A stretch of DNA of 64,000 bases from Natrinema salaciae (GTDB taxonomy: Archaea; Halobacteriota; Halobacteria; Halobacteriales; Natrialbaceae). The translations under genes and the position numbers were made by a program. The stretch lies in the NCBI RefSeq assembly GCF_900110865.1, contig NZ_FOFD01000006.1:186001-250000 (forward strand). The letters run 5' to 3'. Below the pieces are notes generated by a model. That model made no database searches. It had not been told where the DNA came from and saw only the letters and a program-made list of their open reading frames with translations. Position 1 is the first letter of the stretch. Each line of letters opens with the position of its first letter. Below are positions 9,906 through 49,769 of the stretch, one piece after another.

Positions 9906-10700
9906 TTAGGCCTCGAGCGCCAGCCCCGCTTCGGCCAGCGCCTCGTCGGTCGAGAGATCCTCGTGGACGACGCCGGCGACCGCTCGCGCGATGGCTTCGG
10001 GGTTCTCGTGCTGGAAGATCGAACGGCCCATGGAGACGCCCGCACCGCCGGCGTCCATGACGCCGCGGACCATTTCGATCGTCTCGCGGTCGGACCCCTT
10101 CGAGCCGCCCGCGATGACGACCGGGAGCCGGGTCGACTCGACGACGTGCTGGAAGCTCTCCGCGTCGCCGCTGTAGCCGGTCTTCACGATGTCGGCACCC
10201 AGTTCCTCGGCGAGCCGGACCGCGTGGCCGAGCGACTCGGCGTCCTCGGAATCGACGCCGGGGCCGCGAGCGTAGGCCATCGCGAGCACCGGAATCCCGA
10301 ACCGCTTGGCCCGTTCGGTGACCTCCGAGAGCTGGCTGATCTGGCCGGGTTCGTGATCCGAGCCGACGTTGATGTGGAAGGAGACGGCGTCGGCACCGAC
10401 CCGGATGGCCTCCTCGACGCTCCCGGTCATTCGCTTGTCCTGCTCGTCCGGGCCGATCGTGGTCGAGCCGTTGAGGTGGACGATGTAACCCTTCCCGTTC
10501 TTGTTCTCGTGGACGCGGGGTGCGACGCCCTTCTGCGTGAGAACCGCGTCCGCACCACCGCTGGTCACGCCGTCGATCGTCGCTTCGATGTCTTTCAGCC
10601 CCTGGACGGCACCCATCGTGATGCCGTGGTCCATGGGGACGATTACGTACGATCCGTCTGTCCCGATTCGTTCGAGTCGTGCGTCAATTCCTGTGGTCAT
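9906..10700 (-). CDS. aroA': 2-amino-3,7-dideoxy-D-threo-hept-6-ulosonate synthase (AroA')
   Basis: First step of the archaeal shikimate pathway: aldolase-type condensation that makes the substrate for AroB'. A 264-residue (beta/alpha)8 protein of the DhnA/FbaB family. Active-site groups are visible: Asp24-His25 in VPMDHGITMG, Tyr143 in MAYARGPG and the Schiff-base Lys173 in DIVKTGYSGD. Phosphate loops are IAGGSKGSD and GVSMGRSIFQ. Its ATG is 24 bp after the trpA stop, so it is most simply the last gene of the trpC-trpB-trpA operon and would be controlled with tryptophan synthesis. Confidence 0.95.
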   Translation of the reverse strand: MTTGIDARLERIGTDGSYVIVPMDHGITMGAVQGLKDIEATIDGVTSGGADAVLTQKGVAPRVHENKNGKGYIVHLNGSTTIGPDEQDKRMTGSVEEAIRVGADAVSFHINVGSDHEPGQISQLSEVTERAKRFGIPVLAMAYARGPGVDSEDAESLGHAVRLAEELGADIVKTGYSGDAESFQHVVESTRLPVVIAGGSKGSDRETIEMVRGVMDAGGAGVSMGRSIFQHENPEAIARAVAGVVHEDLSTDEALAEAGLALEA

Positions 10701-10724: not shown

Positions 10725-11606
10725 TTATGGCTGTTCTGGTTCCGGTGCATCTTCCGGATCGACCGTTACGGTCTCCGCACCGCGGCGTGCGCCCCGTTTG
10801 AGCTCGCGGGCTTTGGCCTCGAGTCGGTCGACCGCCGCGTCCGGCGTCTCGCTCGAGGCGATGATGTCGACGAGCGCGCTGCCGACGATGACGCCGTCGG
10901 CGCCCGCTTCGACGATTTCGGCCGCGTGGTCGCCCTCGCTGACGCCGAAGCCGACGGCCTTGGGCACGTCGTACGTCGACAGCCGCTCGAGGCTGTCGTG
11001 GGTCGCCGTCGAGACGTTCGCTCGCGCACCGGTCGTCCCGAGGCGAGCCTGGACGTACGCGAACCCGGACACCTGCGACATGATGGCGTCCAGCCGCTCG
11101 CCCTCGGTCGTCGGCGCGACGATGAAGACGAGATCGAGCCCGTGGGCGTCGCAGGCCTCGCGCAGCGGGGCCGCCTCCTCGGCGGGCAGGTCGGGAACGA
11201 TGATCCCCGAGAGGCCGGCCTCGGCGGCGCGCTCGACGAACGGCCGTACGTCCGGCTCCGAACCGTACTGCAGGATCATGTTGTAGTACGTCATCACCAG
11301 CAGCGGCGCCTCGGTCTCGAGGCCGTCGACCAGCTCGAAGAAGCCCTCGGGGGTCGTCCCGGCCTCGAGCGCGCGGTTGATCGCGGCCTGGATCGTCTGC
11401 CCCTCGGCGATCGGCTCCGAGAACGGCAGCCCGAGTTCGATCAGGTCCGAGCCGCCACGGTCGAGGGCCTCGACGTACGCCTTCGTGTCCTCGAGCGACG
11501 GATCGCCCGCGGTGATGTAGGTGATCAGCGCCGGGCGGTCCTCGCGGATGGCGGCTTCGACGTCGCTGCCGTGCTCCTCGCTCTCCGCTCGACTCTCGCG
11601 GGTCAT
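10725..11606 (-). CDS. trpA: Tryptophan synthase alpha chain
   Basis: Cleaves indole-3-glycerol phosphate and passes indole to TrpB. A 293-residue TIM-barrel protein with a ~20-residue charged C-terminal extension. The catalytic Glu is Glu57 ([11 protein letters not shown]). The position of the second acid (Asp60 in Salmonella, in the motif SDPLADG) reads SEPIAEG, so Asp is replaced by Glu68; from memory this is usual in haloarchaea. Phosphate-binding loops include [10 protein letters not shown] and [10 protein letters not shown]. Overlaps the trpB stop by 4 bp, a sign of coupled translation. Confidence 0.96.
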
Positions 11607-12919
11607 CCGTCGAACACCTCCACGTCCGGCGCGGCCTCGAGATCGCGTTTTTCGGTCTCCTCGAGCACGGTCTCCAGGTCCTTGTCGCCGCGTCCGGAGA
11701 CGTTGACGACGACGAGGTCGCCGAGGTCGTCGTCAACGTCTCGCGGGGTTTGTCCGCTCGACGTTTCCGCGACGGGTCCCGCCGCGCGCTCGAGATAGCC
11801 CAGCGCGTGACTCGACTCGAGCGCGGGAATGATCCCCTCGAGTCGCGAGAGCCGGTGGAAGCCGTCGAGCGCGGCCTCGTCGTCGACGCTCGCGGGCGTG
11901 ACCCGCCCCGTCTCGACGAGGTGCGAGAGCTCCGGGCCGACGCCGGCGTAGTCCAGCCCTGCGCTGACGCTGTGTGACTCCATGATCTGGCCGTCCTCGC
12001 TCTGGAGGAGCTTCGTCATCGCGCCGTGGAGGACGCCGTCGGTGCCCGTCGAGAGCGTCGCGGAGTTGGGTGCGAGGCCCGCCGTTTCGTCGATCTCGAG
12101 GCTCGAGCCGCCGGCCTCGACGGCGTAGAGGTCCACCTCCTCGTCCGGCACGAACGCGTGGAAAGTGCCCATCGTGTTCGAGCCGCCGCCGGCGCAGGCG
12201 ACCACGCTGTCGGGGAGCCGTCCGGCCGTCGCCTGGATCTGCTCGCGGATTTCGTCGCCGATGACCGACTGGAAGTCCCGGACCATCTTCGGGAACGGGT
12301 GCGGGCCGACGACCGAGCCGATCACGTAGTGGGTTCGCTCGACGGTGGTCGCCCAGTCGCGCATCGTCTCGTTGATCGCCTCCTTCAGGGTGCCGCTGCC
12401 GGCCTCGACGGGATTCACCTCGGCCCCGTTCATCCGCATGCGGTAGACGTTGGGGCGCTGGCGGTTGACGTCCGTCCGGCCCATGTAGATCTCGCAGGGC
12501 ATGTCGAGGTGGGCCGCGGCCATCGCCGTCGCGGTGCCGTGTTGCCCGGCACCGGTCTCGGCGATGATCCGCTCTTTGCCCATGTACTTGGCCAGCAGTA
12601 CCTGTCCGAGTGCATTGTTCAGCTTGTGGGCACCGCCGTGGAGGAGGTCCTCGCGCTTGAGGTAGATCTCGCGGTCGTAGCGCTCGCTCAGCCGGTCCGC
12701 GCGCTGGAGCGGCGTCGGCCGCCCGCCGAAGTCTCGCATCCGCTCGTGGAACTCGTCCAGGAATCCGTCCTCGTTCTCGAGGACGTACCGCTCGTAGGCG
12801 TCCTCGAGTTCCTGCAGGGCCGGCATCAGCGCCTCGGGGACGTACTGGCCGCCGTAGTCGCCGAACGTGCCCGTCCGTTCGGAGTCGTGCTCGTCGCCGC
12901 GTTCGTGTTCCGTGCTCAT
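11603..12919 (-). CDS. trpB: Tryptophan synthase beta chain
   Basis: PLP enzyme that joins indole and serine to form tryptophan. A 438-residue protein of the normal TrpB1 type, with N-terminal [20 protein letters not shown] Lys99 in [13 protein letters not shown] and the phosphate-binding loop [25 protein letters not shown] contains the catalytic Glu of the E-TGAGQ motif. Second gene of trpC-trpB-trpA-aroA'; starts 25 bp after the trpC stop and overlaps trpA by 4 bp. Confidence 0.97.
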
Positions 12920-12944: not shown

Positions 12945-13745
12945 TCATGTCGTTTCCTCCGTCGTCGATTCGGCCGATTCCGCTCGCGTGAGCCGTCGCG
13001 TGTTCTCGGTCACGTCGCTGTCGCCCGCGCCGTGGTCCATGACGGCGCTCCCGACCAGGAGGGCGTCGGCACCCGCCTTGCGCATCCGTCGCACGTCGGC
13101 CGGCGACGACACCCCGCTCTCGGCGATCAGCGTCACGTCGGCCGGAGCGTGGGGGGCGACGGACTCGAACGTTTCGAGGTCGACCTCGAGTCGCGCCAGA
13201 TCGCGGTTGTTCACCCCGATGATCTCCGCGCCCGCCGCGAGCGCGGCCTCGAGTTCCGCGCGGTCGTGCACTTCCACGAGGGGTTGAAAGCCGCGCTCGC
13301 GGGCCGCGGCGACGAGCGCCTCGAGGTCGTCGACGAACCTGACGATCACCAGCAACAGGTCCGCCGCGACGACATCCATCCCCGGTTCGTCGAGGACGAA
13401 GTCCTTGCGCAGGACCGGCACGTCGACGGCCTCCCGGATGCGGGTCAGCGCGTCCGGCGACCCGCCGAAGTGGGTCGGCTCCGTGAGCACCGAAATCGCC
13501 GCCGCGCCGCCGTCGACCATCGCCCGCGCGAGTTCGACCGGATCGTCGTCTCGAGTCCCCTCGGCCGTCGGACTCGTCGGTTTCACCTCCGCGATCACTG
13601 GGACTCGTCCCTCGGCCTCCGCGTCGGCCAACGCGTCGGACAGCGAGCGCGCGTCGACGTCGATGACGGCGTCACCGCCCGAGCGCTCCCGGGCCGCCTC
13701 GAGGATCGACCGCACCGCGGGCGCGAGCTCCGTATCGGAGTTCAT
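12945..13745 (-). CDS. trpC: Indole-3-glycerol phosphate synthase
   Basis: Ring-closing decarboxylation to indole-3-glycerol phosphate. A 266-residue TIM barrel with the family sequences [11 protein letters not shown] (substrate Lys in EVKP), [10 protein letters not shown] (KDF motif), [14 protein letters not shown] and [12 protein letters not shown]. First gene of the operon continuing into trpB, trpA and aroA'. trpD, trpF and a trpE-trpG pair are not adjacent. The promoter carries three phased GTAC repeats described separately. A short CDS overlap is not seen; trpB follows after 25 bp. Confidence 0.96.
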
Positions 13746-13748
13746 TAT

Positions 13749-13782
13749 TGTACATCGACGTACTCATATGTACATAAGGCTT
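13749..13782 (-). promoter_or_regulatory. trpC operon promoter/operator: three GTAC palindromes at 10-bp spacing
   Basis: GTAC occurs at 13750-13753, 13760-13763 and 13770-13773, exactly one helical turn apart, and the outer two are TGTACA hexamers (13749-13754, 13769-13774). Read on the minus strand the element CCTTATGTA overlaps the outer hexamer and lies about 30 bp before the trpC ATG, so it is the probable TATA box, and the inner hexamer would overlap the transcription start. TGTACA is the consensus of the TRP box bound by the repressor TrpY in Methanothermobacter; use of the same box here is inference. Confidence 0.65.
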
Positions 13783-13863
13783 GCGTCCTGGAGACACACG
13801 GACCGACGGCCGTCGAGCGCGCGGACCGGCGGCTATTCAAGCCCGGCCCGCCTACGGCGGCCT

Positions 13864-14334
13864 ATGGTCGACGTTACGGACGCCGGAATTTACGCGCGCG
13901 AGTCGAACTACCTCGATCGGTACGTTCAGCTCGGAGCCGCCAGCGGGCGGGTCCTGAGCGTCTCCTTCCCCGAGATTCCCGACGACGACGTCGAGGACGA
14001 GCACCCGTTCCTGGATCGAATCTTCGAATACCTCGACGGCCTCGAGCCGGTCACCTTCGAGGACGTCCAGATCGCGATGACCATGCCGACCGACCAGCGG
14101 GCGGTCCTCGAGGGCGTTCGGGAGATCCCCTACGGGGATCAGGTCACCGTCGAGACGCTCGCCCGGATGACCTCCGGGCTCGACCACGAGGACGACGACG
14201 ACATCATCCTCGTCCGGACCGCGCTGGACGAGAACCCCGCCCCGCTGCTGATCCCGGACCACCGCGTGCGCGACGGTCCCAGCGCCGCGCCGCCGGACGT
14301 CGAACAGAAGCTGCGGTCGCTCGAGGGGTTGTAA
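13864..14334 (+). CDS. MGMT/alkyltransferase-like protein lacking the active-site Cys
   Basis: A 156-residue protein with the DNA-binding domain of O6-alkylguanine-DNA alkyltransferase: FEDVQIAMTMPTDQRAVLEG, the recognition-helix region IPYGDQVTVETLARM, then ALDENPAPLLIPDHRV. The last motif corresponds to NP.P..IPCHRV, but Asp132 stands where the alkyl-accepting Cys should be, so suicidal alkyl transfer is impossible. Alkyltransferase-like (ATL) proteins usually have Trp there and flag lesions for excision repair; an analogous role is inference. Short N-terminal domain. Stands alone, with trpC divergent upstream. Confidence 0.85.
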   Translation: MVDVTDAGIYARESNYLDRYVQLGAASGRVLSVSFPEIPDDDVEDEHPFLDRIFEYLDGLEPVTFEDVQIAMTMPTDQRAVLEGVREIPYGDQVTVETLARMTSGLDHEDDDDIILVRTALDENPAPLLIPDHRVRDGPSAAPPDVEQKLRSLEGL

Positions 14335-47329: not shown

Positions 47330-47367
47330 GATCGGCCCGCCCGAGCGACGAGTCGGGCGGCCCGATC
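47330..47367. terminator. Strong hairpin between convergent genes
   Basis: GATCGGCCCGCCCGA (47330-47344) and TCGGGCGGCCCGATC (47353-47367) pair at 14 of 15 positions with an 8-nt loop. It lies between the HalOD1 stop and the pabA stop, overlapping the latter. Position suggests a bidirectional terminator or RNA end; archaeal termination usually relies on T runs, which are absent. Confidence 0.35.
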
Positions 47368-48016
47368 ACGCGTCGACTCGAGCGGCGAACCGACAGAAGT
47401 TCGCGATCATCCGCTTGCCGACCGACAGCGAGATGCCGTCGCCGTCCGCGGCGTCCTCGTGCTCGCGCGTGAGAATGCTCTCGGGGTGGAACTGGACGCC
47501 GACGTGGGGCTTCTCGCGGTGTCGAACCGCCATCAGGACGCCGCGCTCGTCGGCCGTCCGCGCGGTCTCCTCGAGGACGGCGGGCAGATCCGCCCGGTCG
47601 ACCGTCAGCGAGTGGTAGCGGCCGACCTGAAACGCGTCGGGGAGCCCCTCGAACAGTCCCGTGCCGTCGTGGCCGATCGTCGAGGGCTTCCCGTGGACCA
47701 CCTCGGGCGCGTGGACGACCGGCGCGCCGTTGGCCGCGCACAGCGCCTGATGACCGAGACAGACCCCCAGAATCGGGAGTTCGGTCTCCGCGAACAGCGG
47801 GATCGAGATCCCCGCCGCCTGGGGCGTTCCCGGCCCCGGCGAGACGACGATGCCGGTCGGCTCGAGGTCGCGAACGCCCGCGAGGTCGAGCTCGTCGTTG
47901 CGCCGGACGAGCACCTCGTCCGCGAGTTCCCCCACGTACTGGACGAGGTTGTACGCGAACGAGTCGTAGTTGTCCACGACGAGCATTCGGGTGTCCGTCT
48001 CAGTCACCGGATTCAC
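47366..48016 (-). CDS. pabA: Aminodeoxychorismate/anthranilate synthase glutamine amidotransferase
   Basis: Supplies ammonia from glutamine to the chorismate-binding partner. A 216-residue class I amidotransferase: [35 protein letters not shown], nucleophile Cys in [13 protein letters not shown], and the His-Glu pair in [12 protein letters not shown]. It starts with GTG inside the end of the synthase component I gene (17-bp overlap); an ATG at 47986 would be an alternative. Called pabA rather than trpG from the neighbouring pabB-like gene and pabC across the island; trpG is the alternative. Confidence 0.82.
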
Positions 48017-49604
48017 CCCCGTCGGCCCGCTCCGACTTCACTTCGGCGTCCGACTCGAGCCCCAGGTCGGCCCGCTCGCCGAGCGCGTCGTCGACCGCCG
48101 CGATGAGGGCGCGGGCCTTGTCGAGGGTCTCGTCGTACTCGCGGGCGGGGTCGGAGTCGTGGACGATCCCCGCGCCGACCCGCAGGTGGTACTCGTCGGC
48201 GTGACGGACGAGCGTCCGGATGACGATGTTGAGGGTGGCCCGGCCGTCGAACCCGAAGATGCCGACGCTGCCCGTGTAGGGACCGCGGCGGGTCGCCTCG
48301 AGTTCGTCGATGATCTCCATCGTCCGCGGCTTCGGCGCGCCGGTGATCGTGCCGCCGGGGAAGACCGCGGCGACGGCGTCGGAGAGCGTCGCATCCGGTC
48401 GAAGCCGCCCGGTGACGTTCGACACGAGGTGCATGACCTCGGAGTAGCGGTCGATCCGCCGGTACTCGTCGACGGTGACCGAGCCGTACTCGCAGACTTT
48501 CCCGAGATCGTTGCGCTCTAGGTCGACCAGCATCGCGTGCTCGGCGCGTTCCTTCTCGTCGGTGAGCAGGTCGTCCTCGAGCGCGGCGTCCGCCGCGGGC
48601 GTCTCGCCGCGCGGGCGAGTGCCCGCGATCGGTTCCGTCCGAACGAACTCGCCGTCGCGCTCCAACAGCAGTTCCGGACTGGCGCTCACCAGGTCCGCCG
48701 CACGGAACTCGAGCAGACACGAGTACGGTGCCGGGTTGACCCGCCGGAGGGCGTCGTAGGCGGCGACCGGGTGGACCGCGGCGGGCGCGACCAGTCGCTG
48801 GGAGACGTTCGCCTGAAAGGTGTCCCCCTCGCGGACGTACTCCTTGACTCGACGCACCCGGTCGGCGAACGCCGCCCGCCCGCACTCGCTCTCGAACGTC
48901 GCCGCCGGAGTCGAGACGGGCGGCTCGCCGCCCTCGGGGTCCCGGTCCCCGTCGAGGACGGCCCCGGCGAGCTCGAGCGCCCGCTCGCGGCCGCGCTCGT
49001 AGGCGGCTTCGAGGTCCGCGTCGGTCGGCTCCGTCCCGCCGCCGACCCGCGGACAGGCCGTGACCCGCACCGTCACGTCGCCGTCGGTCGGCTCCGTCCA
49101 GGCGACGAGCCGGTCGTAGACCGCGACCTCGAGTCGGGGTAGCCCGCGATCGTCGACGGCCGAGTCGGGCAGCGTCTCGAGTTCGCGCGCGACGTCGTAG
49201 GAGAGCCAGCCGACGGCCCCGCAGGGGTAGGGCACGTCACAGTCGCCGCGCGCGAGCCGGTCGCCCGCGAGCAGCCCCTCGAGTGCGGCCAGCGTCGGCG
49301 AGCGGTCGTCGCCACGGTCCCGTCGGACCGCGTCGGGACCGACGGTGAGCCGATCGACGGGGTTGACGCCGAAGTAGCCCCAGCCGGGCTGGCCGCCGGT
49401 CGTCTCGAGAAAAGCGGTACCGTCGCCGTCGCCGCGCACCCGTCGATAGGCGAGGAAGGGATCGTCGACGGTCGCGCGGGCTTCGACGGGAACCCGGAGC
49501 CCGCGCGTCGACGCGGCGGGCTCCGCGTCGGGCCCGCCCCGCTCGCGATCGCGAGCGGCGGCGCGAAACGAGTCCAGCGTCGTCACGACGCGGGGATCGC
49601 TCAT
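48000..49604 (-). CDS. pabB: Aminodeoxychorismate synthase component I (or anthranilate synthase TrpE)
   Basis: Chorismate-binding enzyme of 534 residues. The C-terminal domain has [71 protein letters not shown] and [25 protein letters not shown] is found in anthranilate synthases and in one subgroup of PabB. The N-terminal LLES feedback motif of TrpE is not clear (FLETTGG). With the class IV lyase pabC on the same strand nearby and no trpD or trpF, PabB is favoured. ATG at 49604 chosen over GTG 12 bp upstream. Confidence 0.78.
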
Positions 49605-49769
49605 GGTCGTCGACACGGACCGGGCGAGTAATCCTCTTGCGATTCCCGGTTCGACGGGGTCGCCGGTCGAGAAACAGGAGAGAACGCCGTCGGGCGAGTG
49701 ACGAAGCGGGTCGACGTCGGGTGTCGGGACTCGAGTGGCGAGTGACAGTGGCGTCAGTCCGAGGGTGCG

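Follow-up and report, generated by a model that had tools for sequence, protein, structure and literature searches.

The nearest described counterpart of the system considered here is that of Methanothermobacter, where the prototype TrpY is autoregulated and uses the amino acid as corepressor, and where TGTACA is reportedly the consensus of the TRP boxes (as Xie and Reeve are said to have found in 2005). Archaeal control of tryptophan (Trp) synthesis is little known, with the Methanothermobacter TrpY named as the exception in a study that also cites its TRP boxes, reports that trp is not under the control of TrpY in Thermococcus kodakarensis, and holds that the function of the haloarchaeal and related TrpY branches cannot be estimated (PMC6737238). 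The same study describes Tar (TK0271) of T. kodakarensis as the aromatic regulator of the trp and aro operons, an activator acting from the site TGGACA-N8-TGTCCA upstream of BRE/TATA (PMC6737238). Among haloarchaea, Halobacterium salinarum induces trpCBA-OE1472F (the last being the aroA' gene) and trpD1FE1G1 together without aromatic amino acids, in a medium lacking Trp, Tyr and Phe all at once; induced under the same condition are three Na+-dependent transporters and LrpA2 (OE2776F), which rises 14.9-fold and is the regulator proposed by the authors (PMC4162585). Within the literature covered, mostly that outside subscription papers, no TGTACA site is described for archaeal trp genes and no role is described for TrpY in haloarchaea.

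The window (the whole stretch of 64,000 nucleotides that was analyzed) contains a trpCBA-aroA' operon whose promoter can be set beside each of these systems. It resembles that of Methanothermobacter thermautotrophicus in having TGTACA boxes, of what is said to be the consensus sequence, in a trp promoter, in the presence of an encoded TrpY-family protein with HTH and ACT domains, and in having Trp-synthesis genes as the targets. Unlike in Methanothermobacter, trpY is here unlinked and has its own promoter without a phased array, the targets are two split operons plus aroA', and three or four half-sites stand in strict 10-bp phase. With Tar it shares the link to a trp operon and a palindromic half-site of the TGNNCA type, but the spacer is N14 (or N4) rather than the N8 of Tar, and the sites overlap or follow the TATA element. 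The haloarchaeal Lrp/AsnC protein LrpA2/trh1 shares the strong response to aromatic amino acids seen in H. salinarum (PMC4162585), and has no known GTAC operator.

The coordinates of the features are collected in Table 1. Three GTAC sequences occur at strict 10-bp steps (13750-13753, 13760-13763 and 13770-13773), the outer two extended to TGTACA (13749-13754 and 13769-13774) and the middle one a plain GTAC, which confirms the reading at 13750, 13760 and 13770 given in the initial annotation. Read on the minus strand, the array extends from the TATA-like TTATGTAC, some 30 nt ahead of trpC, as far as the ATG (13745), and the coding strand reads GCAAGCC-TTATGTACATATGAGTACGTCGATGTACAATA-ATGAAC, that is, the TATA-like element, the three GTAC, the ATG and a possible fourth half-site, GAAC. 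The columns of this last element are kept in the alignment of trpC promoters, a conservation that is confounded by the Asn codon. The annotation had also stated that the array spans both the TATA-like element and the probable start site of trpC; the first part is borne out by the overlap of TTATGTAC with the first TGTACA, and the second, the probable transcription start, would follow from TATA spacing.

Table 1. Features at and around the trpC promoter (window coordinates).
Feature	Position	Strand	Basis
Predicted operator TGTACA-N14-TGTACA with central third GTAC	13749..13774	-	Sequence reading and conservation across trpC promoters
Possible fourth phased half-site, GTTC (coding strand GAAC, GNNC)	13740..13743	-	One mismatch, same 10-bp register; over trpC codons 1-2
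BRE-like CGCAAG (13780-13785) with TATA-like TTATGTAC (13770-13777), forming the putative core promoter	13770..13785	-	CGCAAGnCTTWTG almost invariant in 81 promoters
trpC, indole-3-glycerol phosphate synthase	12945..13745	-	Pfam IGPS, E 8e-70
trpB, tryptophan synthase beta	11603..12919	-	Pfam PALP
trpA, tryptophan synthase alpha	10725..11606	-	Pfam Trp_syntA
aroA', DeoC/LacD-family aldolase, first aromatic-pathway step	9906..10700	-	Begins 24 bp downstream of trpA; terminal operon gene
Divergent neighbor, 6-O-methylguanine-DNA methyltransferase-type DNA-binding domain; outside the system	13864..14334	+	Pfam DNA_binding_1

The exact pair TGTACA-N14-TGTACA is present in a single copy in the window and in a single copy in the 4.86-Mb genome, and the number of window matches with at most two mismatches (two) was reached by no shuffle. 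A chance origin of the array is ruled out by these window shuffles and the uniqueness in the genome, together with the counts for control patterns and random windows. The search for further TGTACA pairs 20 bp apart, which the annotation had suggested, returned trpC as the one exact pair in this genome, and mostly trpC among the 30 loci read across the class. Near matches in the same genome were in little excess over the control (39 vs. 25), and a 30-column motif model that could have revealed a wider regulon in this genome matched only trpC. Two other sites were considered and rejected. The only further genomic copy of exact GTAC-N6-GTAC-N6-GTAC (C1:139180) belongs to four GTAC at 10-bp steps in an intergenic AGTACYCGA repeat behind the S-layer glycoprotein gene (L085:4181-4217 of genome G000) and has no link to trp, and the sequence at C1:157736 (TGTACT..TGTACA) precedes an unrelated membrane-protein gene.

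The conservation of the array was assessed in 80 trpC loci from named haloarchaeal genomes, with promoter counts taken over 81; the closest trpC matches among the fetched loci are from Natrinema, at 89% protein identity. TGTACA-N14-TGTACA is found with at most one mismatch in 74/81 promoters and with at most two in 79/81, compared to 0.25% and 0.31%, respectively, of random windows from the same loci. Pairs of GTAC across these promoters are spaced by 10 bp 105 times and by 20 bp 60 times, and by any other distance only twice. The promoter block is near-identical throughout the Natrialbaceae and still recognizable in Haloferax (where the middle site is GTGC), Halorussus (TGTACA..TGCACA), Halogeometricum, Halobellus and others, and at many haloarchaeal trpC genes the conserved footprint reaches from BRE/TATA to the ATG, with the DNA upstream of the BRE unconserved. 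The exact pair has matches in 78 of 194 genomes of the class (none for the reversed-pattern control), and 27 of the 30 loci that were read are trpC, with one trpD. The phased GTAC array is therefore a conserved property of orthologous trpC promoters, whose alignment had been proposed as a check on the annotation; its absence from them, named there as a refutation, is not what the alignment shows, and from these comparisons the array is almost certainly a real operator of trpCBA-aroA'.

The gene order trpC-trpB-trpA-aroA' is kept in 79/80 haloarchaeal loci, in agreement with the earlier statement that the operator covers aroA' too. Since aroA' is the last gene of this operon, the first step of the aromatic pathway would be controlled jointly with the Trp branch. 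The remaining Trp genes form a second operon, trpDFEG, on a different contig (the two operons lie on C6 and C1). A second trpE/trpG-like pair lies on the minus strand of the window at 47366-49616, where the TrpE model scores 357 bits, below its cut-off; it probably encodes aminodeoxychorismate synthase, and among the matches listed there is no phased GTAC at this pair.

The trpD promoters of 30 haloarchaea carry an array of their own, with GTAC at position 0, GTAC or GNNC at 10 and GTAC at 30, placed immediately behind the TATA-like CTTAAG. The corresponding pair TGTACA-N4-TGTACA is matched in 39 of the 194 class genomes (the reversed-pattern control gave 4 hits), and trpD promoters account for about 25 of the 30 loci that were read. 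Because the loci read for the N4 and N14 pairs are almost all trpD or trpC, the paired box appears to mark almost only the two Trp operons in the haloarchaeal genomes searched.

Phased GTAC sites were also seen directly before an SNF-family Na+ symporter gene in three genomes belonging to a single haloarchaeal genus (L119, L120, L326-L328), in two of them as TGTACA-N4-TGTACA, and this symporter is possibly a Trp transporter belonging to the regulon. A general extension of the regulon to SNF symporters was not adopted, as phased GTAC is confined to these three genomes, and a fourth lineage shows a weak TGTCCA-N4-TGTGCA; the closest SNF symporter homolog of the genome under study has no phased GTAC. 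In another observation, the 16-mer TGTACAGGGTTGTACA precedes a TFB gene by approximately 130-150 bp in one haloarchaeal genus (L140, L225, L226) and recurs in several genomes of that same genus.

Outside the haloarchaea, Trp operons of other Halobacteriota, methanogens included, have different gene orders and also show phased sites after the TATA element. A GTAC pair within 5-35 bp is present at 12 of 42 such loci, and every one of these 12 is spaced by exactly 10, 20 or 30 bp, as are 1% of control windows. Examples are TATAAATA-TGTACA-N14-TGTACA before trpE (L216), GATGTACTAATTTAGTCATCAAAGTACATTAATC before trpD (L220), which resembles the haloarchaeal trpD sequence, and TGTACA-N4-TGTACA before trpD (L377). 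No GTAC was present at three loci from genomes with no TrpY-family match above the cut-off (families f19 and f25), and several families with TrpY likewise have none at their trp loci.

A separate observation concerns 13 methanogen genomes (L215, L216, L217, L218, L221, L223, L362-L366, L410, L411) in which a short ORF reading ...MP[VL][DE]W... (ggtgATGCCGGTGGA[A/C]TGG; VTIPVW in the variant of L215) lies upstream of trpE. The long trpE frame is the -1 frame of this ORF, entered at the Trp codon, and the entry point is CTG rather than ATG in 8/13 genomes; the exact block occurs only at trpE within 0.70 Mb of methanogen and related sequence. Either a leader peptide with Trp-dependent frameshift or re-initiation, or an unusual region of initiation, could explain it.

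A search for ACT-domain proteins in the genome under study gave one full-length TrpY-family protein (166 aa, HTH and ACT), matching the NCBIfam model TrpY_fam (NF053754.1) over residues 1-163 with 240.6 bits against a cut-off of 180, so the TrpY homolog for which the annotation had recommended a search is indeed present. The family was found in 194/194 haloarchaea sampled, with a single match in each except one genome with two, and Haloferax volcanii, the control row of this search, encodes it as well; in the phylum sample, 112/120 genomes are above the cut-off. In an alignment of representatives, haloarchaea and the sampled families f12, f18, f21, f26, f27 and f29, all of them with phased GTAC, have in common the HTH segment IEIPxTxIAxxxxxDRRVVDxT, which reads IELVPTKIAxxxxVDRKVVV in f14 and f17, where trp lacks a GTAC pair; the comparison is a small sample in which other DRRVVD families have no visible GTAC pair and f11 (phased at 20) is outside the alignment. 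This match between HTH type and operator is consistent with this helix recognizing GTAC.

The gene itself lies on contig C3, apart from both trp operons, and trpY is unlinked to trp in haloarchaea generally. Divergent adjacency of trpY and trp was found only in family f17 (L317, L318, L319), where trpC comes first, the HTH is of the DRKVVV type and no GTAC boxes are visible; the layout recalls the divergent trpY/trpE arrangement described in PMC6737238. No TrpY-like gene was found beside trp in Methanosarcinaceae or Archaeoglobi. Autoregulation of the haloarchaeal TrpY was set aside, as no conserved phased array is present among the readable haloarchaeal trpY upstream regions. Two nearly complete genomes (G307 and G314) have a TrpY-family gene and no TrpE match, and the family may accordingly serve functions other than trp control.

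Starting from the site, its phasing, its conservation and its restriction to the Trp operons, and from the TrpY-family protein and the operon structure, all of which are observed here, we consider it probable that a TrpY-family repressor acts on phased GTAC sites at both Trp operons and thereby on aroA'. A dimeric or oligomeric regulator with an N-terminal HTH domain and a C-terminal ACT domain sensing tryptophan or another aromatic amino acid would bind the GTAC-centered half-sites, which follow one another at 10 bp along one side of the helix in the region separating the TATA box from the start codon. With the amino acid plentiful the array would be occupied and TBP/TFB and RNA polymerase blocked, and with the amino acid scarce the promoter would open; the same regulator would act on trpDFEG via the second array of equal phasing. 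Since the array opens with a TGTACA that overlaps the TATA-like element and closes with one that stops immediately short of the ATG, a protein filling one face of these 26-36 bp would exclude TBP/TFB and polymerase; this geometry over the stretch from TATA to ATG leads us to infer repression, in which the amino acid would serve as corepressor in the way reported for TrpY. The joint induction of both operons in H. salinarum without aromatic amino acids (PMC4162585) speaks for this reading, as does the divergent TrpY-family gene beside the trp operon of f17. The identity of the regulator and the repression are likely, and the separate propositions that the TrpY-family protein binds the array and that tryptophan is the specific ligand seem, respectively, probable and somewhat favored. 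The initial proposal of an equivalent Trp-responsive repressor thus gains a conserved trpCBA-aroA' operator, a matching trpD array and a TrpY-family protein, with repressor binding and the Trp signal as its conditional part.

The main alternative is that the Trp operator is bound by a different protein, either of the Lrp/AsnC type, such as LrpA2, or another HTH protein, which we regard as unlikely overall. Helically phased sites suit Lrp-type octamers, and LrpA2 has in its favor the strong induction and the authors' proposal already mentioned. Several facts also speak against TrpY itself: the unlinked haloarchaeal trpY and the lack of a conserved array in its readable promoters, the Thermococcus TrpY that does not act on trp, the retention of the family without TrpE in G307 and G314, and the absence of a GTAC array in f17, where trpY stands beside trp. 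In contrast, the TGTACA sequence is reportedly the TRP-box consensus of TrpY itself, the TrpY family is universal in the haloarchaea sampled, and its HTH segment tracks the presence of the operator in the sampled lineages, all of which argues for TrpY over LrpA2.

It is also important to consider that the conserved block might comprise only a core promoter and a leaderless translation start, the GTAC spacing being a by-product of TATA-to-ATG geometry. The array does sit exactly between TATA and ATG, with the BRE, TATA and ATG inside the conserved block, but the columns between TATA and ATG are conserved as strongly as BRE/TATA themselves, the same phased sites are placed differently relative to TATA and ATG at trpD and in relatives, and TGTACA pairs (30 loci read per pattern) point almost only to trpC and trpD, as does the motif model that selects trpC alone in its own genome; this explanation is thus very improbable. 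Activation instead of repression would follow the precedent of Tar, which regulates aromatic genes in an archaeon, has a similar half-site and acts as an activator (PMC6737238). The Tar sites, however, are upstream of BRE/TATA, whereas those described here overlap or follow the TATA element, where a bound protein should block initiation, and activation accordingly seems most doubtful. A TrpY-family repressor remains the preferred reading.

TrpY and its boxes are already known from Methanothermobacter; the distribution over the whole phylum, the phasing at strictly 10 bp, the regulon of two operons plus aroA' and the unlinked universal trpY are new. We lean slightly toward the view that the single-copy haloarchaeal protein is the ancestral Trp repressor of Halobacteriota, and that control of Trp genes by phased GTAC (in haloarchaea along with the first aromatic step) predates the split of haloarchaea and methanogens and survived repeated rearrangement of the operons. 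For the haloarchaeal and related TrpY branches, these results supply a candidate operator together with two target operons, at the scale of a phylum. This is an unusually well conserved archaeal operator, useful for the study of cooperative, helically phased binding, for which Haloferax volcanii is a tractable model, and if the proposed regulation is true, the first step of the aromatic pathway would be tied to end-product supply in haloarchaea.
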